Shown here: one piece after another, positions 43,764 to 47,322 of the stretch
How positions within the stretch are numbered: position 1 is the first letter of the stretch
Layout of the letters: every line of letters starts with the position of its first letter
Position numbers and translations under genes: made by a program
Notes under the pieces: generated by a model
The model's database searches: none
Seen by the model: the letters and a program-made list of their open reading frames with translations, nothing else
What the model was told of the DNA's origin: nothing
NCBI RefSeq assembly: GCF_021568285.1
Contig: NZ_JAKGTQ010000002.1
Location: 434,001 to 498,000 of the forward strand
Reading direction: 5' to 3'
DNA length: 64,000 nucleotides
Source: Rheinheimera sp. UJ63
GTDB taxonomy: Bacteria; Pseudomonadota; Gammaproteobacteria; Enterobacterales; Alteromonadaceae

Positions 43764-43985
43764 GTTGTTATCCTGTACAGACGGCGACTAGGGGGTTAAA
43801 CAGTAAATTATAGCCGCAAATCATAGCAGATCTGATGCAGTGTTGGCAGCGCATTATGCAATTCCACTTTATTAAGTTTAGCCACTTGAGTAATGCGCTA
43901 TTTAGCCGCATCATATGCAGGCCTATGTTACGTTTACACTGCACTTTTAAGCGGCGTAACAGGTTTTTCTCTGCATCGAGGTGTT

Positions 43986-44303
43986 ATGCGCTGGTTTAGC
44001 GGTTTAATCATTCTGTTGTATCTAACGGTACTTTGCACACCGCATTCGTCTGCGGTGTATGACGTTAGAGTATTGCCGCAGATAGACAGCCAGTTGCAAG
44101 CGGTGCCTGTGGCACTGCCGCAGTTTTTAGCTAACGAAGCGGATGAAGAACCCGATCAGCCTGATGTTGCCCTGCTTAGTCGCAACCTTGGGCTAGGGCA
44201 TCTTAGTACCGTTGTTGCGCTGACGCAGCGTTTAGCGGTGTTGGCCAACCGCTTATTTTCATCTGCGCAAGCACGCGCCCCCCCTTTGTTCCTCAGCCTT
44301 TAA
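43986..44303 (+). CDS. Candidate RAPP-type translation-arrest leader peptide upstream of secDF
   Basis: A 105-codon ORF with GAGG five bases before its ATG. Residues 1-24 look like a Sec signal peptide (MRWFSGLIILLYLTVLC, possible cleavage after SSA). The middle is acidic and low in complexity (NEADEEPDQPD). The end is QARAPPLFLSL: RAPP at residues 97-100, five residues before the stop. RAPP is the arrest motif of ApdA and ApdP, secretory monitors upstream of SecDF/YidC genes. Known arrest peptides of this kind stall until the Sec system pulls the chain. A longer frame starts at 43893 but lacks a ribosome site. The ORF and motif are seen; arrest is inferred. Confidence 0.72.
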   Translation: MRWFSGLIILLYLTVLCTPHSSAVYDVRVLPQIDSQLQAVPVALPQFLANEADEEPDQPDVALLSRNLGLGHLSTVVALTQRLAVLANRLFSSAQARAPPLFLSL

Positions 44304-44385
44304 ATGATGGCGCGACCCATTGTGGTTCGTCGCACTGTTTAAGCTAGCTTAACCAAAGCCAAGAAGCGCTTTGGTGTGAGAGGAA
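44289..44385 (+). promoter_or_regulatory. Candidate arrest-controlled SD/anti-SD switch
   Basis: TTCCTC (44289-44294), the last-but-three and last-but-two codons of the leader peptide, is perfectly complementary to the Shine-Dalgarno GAGGAA (44380-44385) of the next ORF. Between them are a GCGAC/GTCGC hairpin (44312-44333), the 14-bp palindrome TTAAGCTAGCTTAA (44338-44351) and an ACCAAAGC/GCTTTGGT hairpin (44352-44375), which would bring the two ends together. A ribosome stopped at RAPP would cover TTCCTC and free the SD. The pairing is seen; the mechanism is inferred. Confidence 0.5.
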
Positions 44386-44388
44386 AAT

Positions 44389-44520
44389 ATGGTTTTTATT
44401 GATATTGCGCTTATGCCTGGCAAAGCGTTATTGCCTGTGCTTTTTATATTATTTACCCCGCTGTTACTTCAAGTGTGTCGGCATGTTGATGCGCCTGTTA
44501 GCAAGGAGCAGCTATGCTAA
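44389..44520 (+). CDS. 43-residue membrane microprotein overlapping the secD start
   Basis: ATG at 44389 with AGAGGAAAA just upstream, stop TAA 44518-44520. The product (MVFIDIALMPGKALLPVLFI then LFTPLLLQVCRH) has one hydrophobic segment and a short polar tail. Its last seven bases overlap the secD start (ATGCTAA), so secD translation is probably coupled to it. It is not YajC by length or sequence. It may be a real small partner or only a coupling device. Confidence 0.6.
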   Translation: MVFIDIALMPGKALLPVLFILFTPLLLQVCRHVDAPVSKEQLC

Positions 44521-46367
44521 ACAAGAATTCAACTTGGCAGGTATGCATGGTGATCAGTTTGCTGCTGTTGGCACTGATTTATGCACTGCCTAATCTGTAT
44601 CCAGCCGATCCGGCACTGAGTATCAGTGCAACCCGTGGCGCGAAAATCAGCGAACAAACTCAGGCGCAGTTAAGCCAAACGCTGCAACAAGCGAATATCC
44701 CCGTTAAAGCCCTGCAATTACAAGACGGTCAATTACTGTTACGTTTTGCTGATACCGAAGCACAGTTACAAGCGCAAACGCTGTTCAACAAAACACTTGA
44801 TCATAATTATGTTACGGCCTTGAGTTTAGCGCCTGCCACGCCCGCGTGGTTAGCCCGGATTGGTGCGACGCCAATGAAGTTGGGTTTAGACTTACGCGGT
44901 GGCGTGCATTTTTTGTTAGCGGTGGATATGCAAGCGGCACAGCAAAAACACATGAATGATTTGCAGCAACGACTGCGTGTGGAAATGCGGCAAGCCGATA
45001 TCCGTTATCGCAGCGTGCAAGCCGATCCAACTGATGCTCAACTGCAGATTGCACTGCGAAGTGCTGCTGATTTAGCCTCGTTAGAATCACTGCTGTCAAA
45101 ACGAGATCGACAGTGGTTGCTCAGTCGTGCCGATGATGGTGTTACTTTGCTGTTGCAACTGTCAGAGCTGCAATTAAAAGCGCTGCGTGAAGAGGCGCTG
45201 GAGCAAAATATAACGATTTTGCGTAATCGGGTAAACGAAATTGGTGTGGCCGAGCCGATTGTGCAGCGCCAAGGTGCCGATCGGATTATTGTGCAATTAC
45301 CCGGTGTGCAAGATACCGCGCAAGCCAAAGAGATTTTAGGGGCGACGGCTTCGTTAGAGTTTCGCCTGGTGAACACTCAAGCTGATTTAGCCGCTGCGCT
45401 CGCCGGTCGCGTACCCGCCGATGCTGAGCTATTCCAAACCCGTGACGGGCAGCCCATTTTACTTGAAAAACGTATTATGCTGACCGGGGATCGGATCACC
45501 GATGCCAGCTCTGGCTACGATGAATATGGCATGCCGCAAGTCAGTATTATGTTGGATGCACAGGGTGGCGAATTGCTATCGGCAGGCACTAAAAACGCCA
45601 CCGGGCGGCGCATGGCGTCGGTGTTTGTTGAATACAAAGCCAGTGCCGAGCGTGCTGAGGATGGCAGTGCCGTGCTGATTAAACAGCAAGAGGTGATAAA
45701 TGATGCCACCATTCGTATGCGCCTTGGCCATAGTTTTCAAATTACCGGTTTAAGCTCGTCTGCTGAAGCTCAACAGCTGGCGTCGTTATTACGCGCGGGC
45801 GCCTTAATCGCACCGATCCAAATCTTAGAAGAACGCAGCATCGGCCCTAGTTTAGGCCAAGAAAATATTAAGCTTGGTATGCAAGCCATCTCTTTTGGCA
45901 TGCTGGCCGTGTTGTTGTTTATGCTGGTGTATTACAAAGGCTTTGGTTTGGTCGCGAATGTTGCTTTGCTCGCCAATGTGGTGTTGCTGGTAGGGTTATT
46001 GTCGATGATCCCTGGCGCCACCCTAAGTTTGCCCGGCATGGCCGGCATAGTGTTAACCGTAGGCATGGCAGTGGATGCCAATGTGTTGATCTTTGAGCGG
46101 ATCAGAGAAGAGCTCAGCGCAGGGCGCTCTGTGCAACAGGCTATTCATGAAGGCTACGATCGCGCCTTTGCCACCATTGCCGATTCCAATATTACCACCT
46201 TGTTAGTGGCATTAATTCTGTTTGGCATTGGCACCGGCCCGGTGAAAGGTTTTGCTATTACGCTGGCGCTAGGGATTTTAACGTCAATTTTCACTGCGGT
46301 GCTGTGTACCCGCCTAATCGTCAACATGATTTGGGGTGGCCGCCGTGTGCAGTCACTGTCTATTTAA
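44514..46367 (+). CDS. secD: Protein translocase subunit SecD
   Basis: 617 residues, the usual gammaproteobacterial length. N-terminal helix, then the periplasmic P1 region with the D1 motif LGLDLRGGVHFLL near residue 120, and the five-helix export domain with LPGMAGIVLTVGMAVDANVL and FERIREELSAG near residue 520, including the conserved membrane Asp. It uses ion flow to pull proteins through SecYEG. There is no yajC, tgt or queA nearby, so this is likely a second secDF set like SecDF2 of Vibrio. Preceded by the leader and microprotein. Confidence 0.94.
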   Translation: MLNKNSTWQVCMVISLLLLALIYALPNLYPADPALSISATRGAKISEQTQAQLSQTLQQANIPVKALQLQDGQLLLRFADTEAQLQAQTLFNKTLDHNYVTALSLAPATPAWLARIGATPMKLGLDLRGGVHFLLAVDMQAAQQKHMNDLQQRLRVEMRQADIRYRSVQADPTDAQLQIALRSAADLASLESLLSKRDRQWLLSRADDGVTLLLQLSELQLKALREEALEQNITILRNRVNEIGVAEPIVQRQGADRIIVQLPGVQDTAQAKEILGATASLEFRLVNTQADLAAALAGRVPADAELFQTRDGQPILLEKRIMLTGDRITDASSGYDEYGMPQVSIMLDAQGGELLSAGTKNATGRRMASVFVEYKASAERAEDGSAVLIKQQEVINDATIRMRLGHSFQITGLSSSAEAQQLASLLRAGALIAPIQILEERSIGPSLGQENIKLGMQAISFGMLAVLLFMLVYYKGFGLVANVALLANVVLLVGLLSMIPGATLSLPGMAGIVLTVGMAVDANVLIFERIREELSAGRSVQQAIHEGYDRAFATIADSNITTLLVALILFGIGTGPVKGFAITLALGILTSIFTAVLCTRLIVNMIWGGRRVQSLSI

Positions 46368-46377
46368 GGGGTATTTG

Positions 46378-47322
46378 ATGCAAGTATTTAACTTTACACA
46401 ACCGGCTAATTTTATGCGTTATAAATGGCTGGCCGTGAGTGTGTCTGTGCTACTGGTGCTTAGCTCGTTGATGCTATTAGCCACGCGTGGTTTAAATTGG
46501 GGGTTAGATTTTACTGGCGGTACAGTGATTGAAGTGGCATTTCAGCAAGCCGCTAATTTGGTGCAAGTGCGCGAGGTTTTAGCCGGTGCCGGTTATGCCG
46601 ATGCCGTTGTGCAATTGTTTGGCAGTAGTCAGGATGTGTTAATCCGTATCCCGTTGCAGCAGGGGCTTGCACAAACACAACTGGGCAGCACGGTATTAAG
46701 CGCGTTAACGCAGCAGATTGATCCTCTGATCAGTATGCAGCGCATTGAGTTTGTGGGGCCAAGTGTTGGCGCGGGCTTAAAGCAAGATGGGGGCTTAGCG
46801 TTGCTAGTCGCCTTATTAGGTATTTTACTCTATGTCACCCTGCGCTTTGAATGGCGCTTGTCACTTGGGGCCGTTTTGGCTTTAGGGCACGATGTAATTT
46901 TAACGCTGGGTTTATTTTCATTATTGCAGTTAGAGTTTGATCTGACGGTTTTAGCGGCGGTGTTGGCGCTGATTGGTTATTCAATCAACGATACGATTGT
47001 GGTATTTGATCGCATTCGTGAGAGCTTTCGCAAACTGCGTGATAGTAGCGCGGAAGAAACCATTAACCATGCTATTACCACCACCTTAAACCGTACGGTT
47101 ATTACCTCGTTAACTACACTATTGGTGTTACTGGTACTGTTTTATATGGGAGGTGCACTGATCCATGGTTTTGCAACGGCGTTGTTGTTCGGCATTCTGG
47201 TCGGCACCTATTCGTCAGTTTATGTGGCCAGTGCCATCGCCTTAGTGTTGGGTTTAACGCGGGAAGATTTGCTGGTGCCCGTGATTGAGAAAGAAGGCGC
47301 CACGAATGATTTGCCACTATAA
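46378..47322 (+). CDS. secF: Protein translocase subunit SecF
   Basis: 314 residues. It has the N-terminal NWGLDFTGGTVIEV motif near residue 45, and the membrane motif GYSINDTIVVFDRIRE near residue 210, followed by TTLNRTVITSLTTLL. The ATG at 46378 has AAGGGG upstream, 10 bp after the secD stop. It forms the SecDF complex with the upstream gene. A terminator follows at 47381. Confidence 0.94.
   Translation: MQVFNFTQPANFMRYKWLAVSVSVLLVLSSLMLLATRGLNWGLDFTGGTVIEVAFQQAANLVQVREVLAGAGYADAVVQLFGSSQDVLIRIPLQQGLAQTQLGSTVLSALTQQIDPLISMQRIEFVGPSVGAGLKQDGGLALLVALLGILLYVTLRFEWRLSLGAVLALGHDVILTLGLFSLLQLEFDLTVLAAVLALIGYSINDTIVVFDRIRESFRKLRDSSAEETINHAITTTLNRTVITSLTTLLVLLVLFYMGGALIHGFATALLFGILVGTYSSVYVASAIALVLGLTREDLLVPVIEKEGATNDLPL

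Follow-up and report, generated by a model that had tools for sequence, protein, structure and literature searches.

Organization of the locus

The window, meaning the whole 64,000-nucleotide stretch of Rheinheimera sp. UJ63 analysed here, carries adjacent secD and secF genes, assigned by Pfam and NCBIfam. Because the same genome has another secD, 67% identical and located at G000:C1:650181-652028, the pair in the window represents a second secDF set, and its members are called secD2 and secF2. Upstream of them, in the same orientation, an ORF encodes a small protein (<300 amino acids) without annotated function, here termed the leader, which opens with an ATG and the residues MRWFSG and ends in QARAPPLFLSL before a stop codon at 44301-44303 (Table 1). 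An earlier reading, made from the sequence alone, had described this 105-residue ORF, its C-terminus and its position upstream of secDF in the same terms. That sequence-only reading also called the leader directly upstream of secDF; upstream it is, but 210 bases intervene, and they hold a 43-codon ORF that overlaps the start of secD2. The small ORF has a good Shine-Dalgarno (SD) sequence and showed no homolog among the loci compared; its translational coupling to secD2 is possible.

Table 1. Features of the leader region and of the genes behind it, in window coordinates
Feature	Position	Strand	Basis
Likely SD (GAGG) of leader ORF	43978..43981	+	Sequence
Leader ORF, 105 amino acids, candidate RAPP arrest peptide of secDF2	43986..44303	+	Sequence; homologs in 31/31 genus genomes
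Signal-peptide-like N-terminus, residues 1-23	43986..44054	+	Inspection; amino-acid composition across 77 leaders
Acidic box EADEEPDQPD, residues 51-60, ~41 residues before R of RAPP	44136..44165	+	Composition/position analysis
RAPP codons CGC GCC CCC CCT; predicted stall with first Pro in P site	44274..44285	+	Sequence; P-site position from PMC10987492
Tail segment TCCTC, complementary to downstream SD	44290..44294	+	Pairs with 44380-44384, probability 0.93-0.96 in full context
SD region GAGAGGA of small ORF, partner of leader tail	44378..44384	+	Pairing prediction
Small ORF, 43 codons; stop overlaps secD2 start (ATGCTAA)	44389..44520	+	Sequence
SD (AAGGAG) of secD2; predicted pairing with tail 0.01	44503..44508	+	Pairing prediction
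secD2	44514..46367	+	Pfam SecD domains; within genus clade with secD1
secF2, start set at MQVFNF as in relatives	46378..47322	+	Pfam domains; relatives

The hydrophobic N-terminus of the leader, MRWFSGLIILLYLTVLCTPHSSA, was judged signal-like by inspection and composition. The frame stays open as far upstream as an ATG at 43893 (136 amino acids), but the start conserved across homologs is MRW. Searches of the leader against Pfam and PHROGs returned no match, and the best NCBIfam hit had an E-value of 0.26. A promoter scan around the leader returned one match, on the opposite strand, a number equal to expectation. Between 43760 and 44530, where 1.3 +/- 1.1 terminator-like stems would be expected, there are four, at 44100-44253 and 44419-44435; the leader itself contains three.

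Bacterial proteomes contain RAPP and RGPP less often than expected (PMC12992588). In the 64-kb window, one of 110 six-frame ORFs of 60-200 amino acids has R[AG]PP within its last 20 residues, and it is the leader. Across 58 SecD loci, the window's own included, 548 ORFs of this size gave five with an R[AG]PP end, all five being the leader.

Homologs in the genus and constraint on RAPP

A homology search with the leader against 98 relatives matched 33 genomes, namely all 31 of the set formed by Alishewanella, Rheinheimera and Arsukibacterium (hereafter the genus) and two elsewhere, whose weak matches are regarded as chance. In 30 of the 31 genus genomes, homologs occur at two places, one before the second secDF set and the other before a gene for a CBS-domain protein, where the leader is found in 31/31. 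The 50 leaders first located by homology alone, which come from at least 30 genomes of one genus and had their start codons picked by rule, all carry R[AG]PP near the end, followed by 2-15 residues.

The leader precedes secD2 in the 24 genus genomes having two secD genes. Seven genomes have one secD. In five of these (G003, G005, G017, G019 and G020; loci L051-L055) secD2 is missing and the leader stands before secF2 alone, so that a SecF without a SecD partner lies, oddly, under a leader of the secDF2 type. The sixth, G022, keeps a leader with intact RAPP (L254, 7924-8349) and behind it only a secF remnant (residues 294-321); in the seventh, G013, the homology search found no secDF2-type copy. 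L025, the G022 locus with this secF remnant behind it, gave no downstream start and was omitted from the pairing and codon sets. A leader of secD1 was rejected as a candidate, no RAPP ORF being present before the secD1 loci examined; the ORF found there resembles YajC.

Among rows located by the motif pattern, the secD2/secF2 leaders have 27 RAPP and two RGPP (n=29), the genus CBS leaders 31 RAPP of 31, and the CBS leaders of other genera 37 RAPP and one RSPP in 38 rows, which include named and unnamed copies of some loci and correspond to 28 distinct sequences. At least four codons are used at every R[A/G]PP position in each of the three sets. In 77 dereplicated leaders, likewise collected by motif, the Arg and both Pro residues are invariant and the second residue is Ala in 70, Gly in six and Ser in one. 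For secDF2 leaders, dN/dS is 0.14 in one group and 0.09 in a second; the genus CBS leaders give 0.14 and another genus gives 0.13, while the fifth comparison, a pair with a single difference, was uninformative. RAPP is thus constrained at the amino-acid level. The sequence-only reading had named homologs without conserved RAPP, together with equal synonymous and nonsynonymous rates, as grounds for giving it up, and on both points it survived: R[A/G]PP persists despite varied codon use, and the secDF2-leader rates are far from equal. Its expectation that RAPP would be the most conserved part holds between genera, where by inspection the leader is hardly alignable outside its start, the acidic box and RAPP, but not among close relatives, in which stronger conservation is mostly seen over residues 1-45 than from residue 86 to the end (dN/dS 0.00/0.25, 0.05/0.13 and 0.03/0.17 in three groups; the reverse, 0.29/0.00, in one pair). 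Its central claim, a RAPP arrest-type leader of secDF, is backed by R[A/G]PP in 50/50 homologs and 29/29 secD2/secF2 leaders and by an mRNA switch, described below, at the place expected of one.

Leaders of CBS-domain genes

The protein behind the second leader (L031, 3384-3941, and relatives) has ~186 amino acids, two CBS domains and no assigned function; inspection revealed no signal or membrane segment. A comparison with the PDB gave seven weak matches, all confined to the CBS domains, and family searches likewise found only CBS-domain similarity. Among named species, the copy in the window genome has its closest match, at 80%, in Alishewanella longhuensis. The protein was matched at an E-value of 1e-8 or better in 107 of 196 family genomes; these cover 33 of 52 genera, with weak matches in some.

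Loci were collected by way of the CBS protein, and the upstream DNA was then scanned for a RAPP-like end; the counts of the separate sets are not to be added, because loci recur among them. In the first set, 28 of 30 loci (eight from the genus and 22 from other genera) have a RAPP-like leader, the exceptions being L089 and L094. Among 49 named loci there are 37 with a leader; those lacking one are three from Catenovulum (L161-L163), L164-L170 (six Cellvibrio and one MAG) and one from Shewanella (L171), and L176 is cut off by a contig end. A further 20 loci, hand-picked from the family match list and mostly one per genus, have the leader in 18 cases (L207 and L215 do not). Counted by genus code, the pair of leader and CBS gene occurs in 23 other genera of the family, and g9, sampled once, has no leader. 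Order-wide, 18 of 148 genomes contain the CBS protein, at 19 loci, nine with a leader; these nine include one in family f25 (L231, RGPP) and one in family f15 (L238, RAPP), and all seven CBS loci of family f6 are leaderless. A 64-amino-acid ORF in L242, also flagged by the motif pattern, was excluded from the count. The other three f15 loci (L240-L242) end in RASP, so that the CBS leaders of f15 have either RASP or RAPP after further prolines.

Genes flanking the CBS gene differ between genera in the 12 loci listed. A fixed operon around it was therefore rejected, and the leader and the CBS gene look like a unit.

Origin of the leader and of secDF2

Within the genus, the secDF2 and CBS leaders are alike over their first ~38 residues, and neither has lost the signal-like start, the acidic box or the spacing. 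In a tree built from 104 columns of 88 distinct leaders, which has long branches, the window leader's among them, 29 secD2/secF2 leaders and 17 genus CBS leaders share one supported branch (97/95). The secD2/secF2 label requires two changes on this tree, although one change is also compatible with it. Since the secDF2 leader groups with the CBS leaders of the genus, it is probably a copy of a CBS leader, recruited to a newly duplicated secDF.

In the secD tree, in which L103 and L061 are the same locus, genus secD2 falls inside the genus clade together with secD1 (SH-aLRT 99; secD2 alone, 68), far from the ~40% identical secD2 of other genera. This placement makes the secDF2 of the genus a duplicate that arose within it and has no relation to the VemP-linked secDF2. 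The older, ~40% identical secD2 genes have R..GWK leaders before them in 14 of the 19 genomes of other genera examined. Neither this duplication, nor the paralog before the CBS gene, nor the acidic box was visible to the sequence-only reading.

Pairing of the leader tail with the downstream Shine-Dalgarno sequence

Immediately 3' of the RAPP codons, the transcript is complementary to the following gene's SD, and changes on one side are matched on the other. To illustrate, the matched tail and SD segments are TCCTCACA and TGTGAGGA in L004, CTTCAC and GTGAAG in L002, CTTAACC and GGTTAAG in L045, and ACCTCTC and GAGAGGT in L077. Mean duplex energies of matched pairs, compared with those of permuted pairs, were -9.62 vs -7.24 kcal/mol for the secD2/secF2 leaders (n=27, without the window), -11.16 vs -8.64 kcal/mol for the genus CBS leaders (n=31) and -8.27 vs -6.81 kcal/mol for the CBS leaders of other genera (n=23), with 0 of 1000 permutations reaching the matched value in each case; as the rows are related sequences, these permutation counts are not strict probabilities. 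For the other-genus CBS leaders the test weakened with thinning (one, then seven, of 1000 permutations), and by the longest-run measure it was not convincing, with 3, 12 and 31 of 200 permutations equally good. CBS loci L089, L094 and L096 gave no resolved row in the pairing sets.

When 36 offsets were scanned in 63 dereplicated rows, only three windows of the scan, together spanning nucleotides 7-36 from the R codon, stood out (z -5.2, -8.3 and -5.7; next best -2.6), with the peak at nucleotides 13-30. Judged by the ribosomal footprint, a ribosome that had stalled when the first Pro occupied its P site would have its leading edge at about this place. Blocking nucleotides 1-23, as a stalled ribosome would, raised the mean predicted accessibility of the SD from 0.15 to 0.41 in the secD2/secF2 rows, from 0.09 to 0.38 in the genus CBS rows and from 0.11 to 0.37 in the other-genus CBS rows. 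The gain exceeded 0.1 in 20 of 30 secD2/secF2 rows (29 loci and one mis-assigned window row), in 25 of 31 genus CBS rows and in 18 of 38 other-genus CBS rows, a number that includes duplicates (28 are distinct); accessibility fell in two, none and five rows, respectively. A ribosome stalled at RAPP would, on these predictions, uncover the downstream SD.

The window itself departs from this pattern in its details. The SD with which its leader tail is predicted to pair belongs to the small ORF, not to secD2, and on blocking the tail the secD2 SD stayed flat (0.36 to 0.34) while that of the small ORF opened modestly, from 0.24 to 0.29 in full context or to 0.39 in short context. Here the SD on which the switch operates is probably that of the small ORF, whose end overlaps the start of secD2.

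Relation to described arrest peptides

Arrest peptides with RAPP have already been described for Sec genes and for a variety of others (PMC10987492, PMC12992588), and the window leader is therefore of a known kind by every decidable feature. The definition of the RQH groups asks for a uORF in the same orientation before secA, secDF or yidC and for a RAPP-like C-terminal motif shared by more than two species of an order; the leader lies so before secDF, and all 50 homology-found leaders share the motif. The definition also names an N-terminal secretion signal or transmembrane segment, for which the leader offers a signal-like start. The nearest parallel is uDF_RQH_Enterobacterales, a secretory uORF of a second secDF with a RAPP-like end, whose transcript, like the tail pairing described here, has a stem hiding the secDF2 SD (PMC10987492). 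For its representative from Alteromonas naphthalenivorans, R125GPP, both arrest and secDF2 induction have been demonstrated (PMC10987492, Fujiwara 2024), and the suggestion that such a monitor is possibly undescribed in this lineage was thus too strong. The window leader differs in that its secDF2 is a within-genus duplicate of secDF1, in its grouping with CBS leaders and in a box at fixed spacing.

ApdA and ApdP have a RAPP end, a localization signal and a position before a second secDF (PMC7897499), to which the window leader corresponds with its RAPP end, signal-like start and place. They are set apart by the taxa within which they are defined, Actinobacteriota and Alphaproteobacteria (PMC10987492); membership in ApdP was rejected, the host being a gammaproteobacterium (its CBS protein is nearest to that of Alishewanella). 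VemP, the secretory leader of Vibrio secDF2, follows the same logic (PMC11470409), but a relationship was rejected because its motif RxxxWKxxNxxY (PMC10987492) is absent from the window ORF. SecM, which carries FxxxxWIxxxxGIRAGP (PMC12992588) and lies upstream of secA (PMC7897499), was rejected likewise, as the window leader precedes secDF and lacks that motif. Like the CBS leader, CruR and the RAPP/RGPP leaders of Streptomyces have targets outside Sec and YidC, namely metal, TonB, thioredoxin and sigma-factor genes (PMC12992588), from which the CBS target differs. The leader before a CBS-domain gene may be new: literature text joining arrest peptides with CBS-domain targets was not found, the main text of PMC12992588 makes no mention of "CBS", and nothing was found on Alishewanella together with secDF.

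Proposed mechanism and alternatives

We conclude that the window leader is real, is most likely an arrest peptide and, by its sequence relationships, represents one offshoot of a wider leader family that would guard a CBS-domain gene. Very probably it acts in cis on secDF2, being released by export and opening an SD under weak translocation or a weak proton-motive force, as a relative of the CBS leaders. In this scheme, RAPP would stall the ribosome on the leader during export; the normal pull of translocation would free it and let it terminate, after which the bases 3' of the RAPP codons would pair with the downstream SD and keep the next gene off. With weak translocation or a low proton-motive force, the ribosome would stay parked over those bases, the SD would remain open and the operon would be translated. 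A related leader would control the CBS-domain gene elsewhere in the genome, suggesting that two unrelated genes answer to one built-in sensor, either of export or of membrane energy.

The comparison of relatives shows the conservation of the family, the constraint on RAPP, the co-varying tail-SD pairing, the fixed box and the CBS paralog. Arrest, its release by export and gene induction are likely. Experiment on an Alteromonas RGPP leader demonstrated this switch logic there (PMC10987492). Against the scheme stand the long branch of the window leader, a tail that does not pair with secD2's own SD, the modest opening at the small ORF, the loci at which blocking does not raise SD accessibility and the surplus of terminator-like stems (four at the leader region against 1.3 expected). 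RAPP by itself, moreover, often fails to stall ribosomes (PMC10987492).

What releases the arrest may be bound up with the acidic box. Its centre lies 41.2 residues before the Arg of RAPP (sd 1.8, against 16.8 for the shuffled null and 5.2 for the distance from box to start Met), falling within 38-48 residues in 75 of 77 leaders thinned to <60% identity and in 48 of 50 thinned to <30%. The composition profile of the 77 leaders, from which L224 was omitted despite its motif, shows few charges between box and RAPP. Counted to the P site, the box is ~43 residues from the peptidyl-transferase centre, and chain elements ~45 residues from that centre reach SecYEG (PMC7886326). According to a review, acidic stretches are pulled by the proton-motive force, and SecM arrest is released (PMC6028853). 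One possibility, to which we give somewhat less than even credence, is that release reads membrane potential rather than general Sec capacity: at the stall the box would sit at the SecYEG entry, the electric field would pull its negative charges outward, and low potential would leave the arrest in place and induce SecDF2 and the CBS protein. Fixed spacing and the scarcity of other charges fit this, but the box could have another role, such as contacting the ribosome surface, SecA or a partner in the periplasm, and basic and uncharged stretches also raised release (PMC6028853). In 14 VemP-like leaders, furthermore, the most acidic stretch never lies 38-48 residues before R..GWK (mean 68, sd 11); a box there is therefore not needed for export-coupled release in general.

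A broader form of this idea, which we hold only tentatively and consider rather doubtful, is a portable sensor of membrane energization, in which the box is a "voltage handle", release through SecYEG is driven by potential, falling potential turns the CBS protein on, and the copy before the duplicated secDF creates a two-gene regulon. Were it true, a CBS protein, possibly one that senses adenine nucleotides, would be switched on by low potential in many Alteromonadaceae, and the two-gene regulon of Alishewanella and Rheinheimera would answer membrane-energy or export stress.

It is also conceivable, if rather unlikely, that the CBS copy arrests but senses something other than export, such as an ion or a nucleotide, the two copies sharing machinery and differing in signal. 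RAPP leaders of metal and other non-Sec genes are reported (PMC12992588), and nothing known connects the CBS protein with Sec, its similarity in searches ending with the CBS domains. Both copies nevertheless retain the signal-like start, the box and the spacing, with their first ~38 residues alike in the genus, and inspection of the leaders revealed no conserved set of Cys or His residues.

That the ORF encodes a small secreted periplasmic protein with a function of its own, its RAPP end being incidental, is highly improbable. Purifying selection does act on the whole ORF in close relatives, and three of the four informative groups show it at its strongest in the N-terminal half. Beyond start, box and RAPP, however, the sequence by inspection hardly aligns between genera, the ORF matches nothing in Pfam or PHROGs, and RAPP, rare in proteomes, is found in 50/50 homologs, where it goes with an SD helix that co-varies. 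A chance ORF with a chance RAPP has next to no likelihood, being ruled out by conservation in 31/31 genomes, R[AG]PP in 50/50 homologs and the dN/dS ratios.

It is chiefly for guarding Sec and YidC genes that arrest peptides are known, and a CBS-gene leader of the same architecture would link a possibly energy-sensing protein to the state of export. The acidic box, at its fixed spacing, offers a concrete and mutable part with which the question of arrest release can be approached. The copy before secDF2 would illustrate the re-use of such a sensor, while other genera of the family guard a different secDF2 by VemP-like leaders. At three loci, in three genomes (L247, L252 and L253), the leaders of diverged secDF2 end in C[QR]PANLTYR..., with neither GWK nor RAPP, and this may be another arrest sequence.
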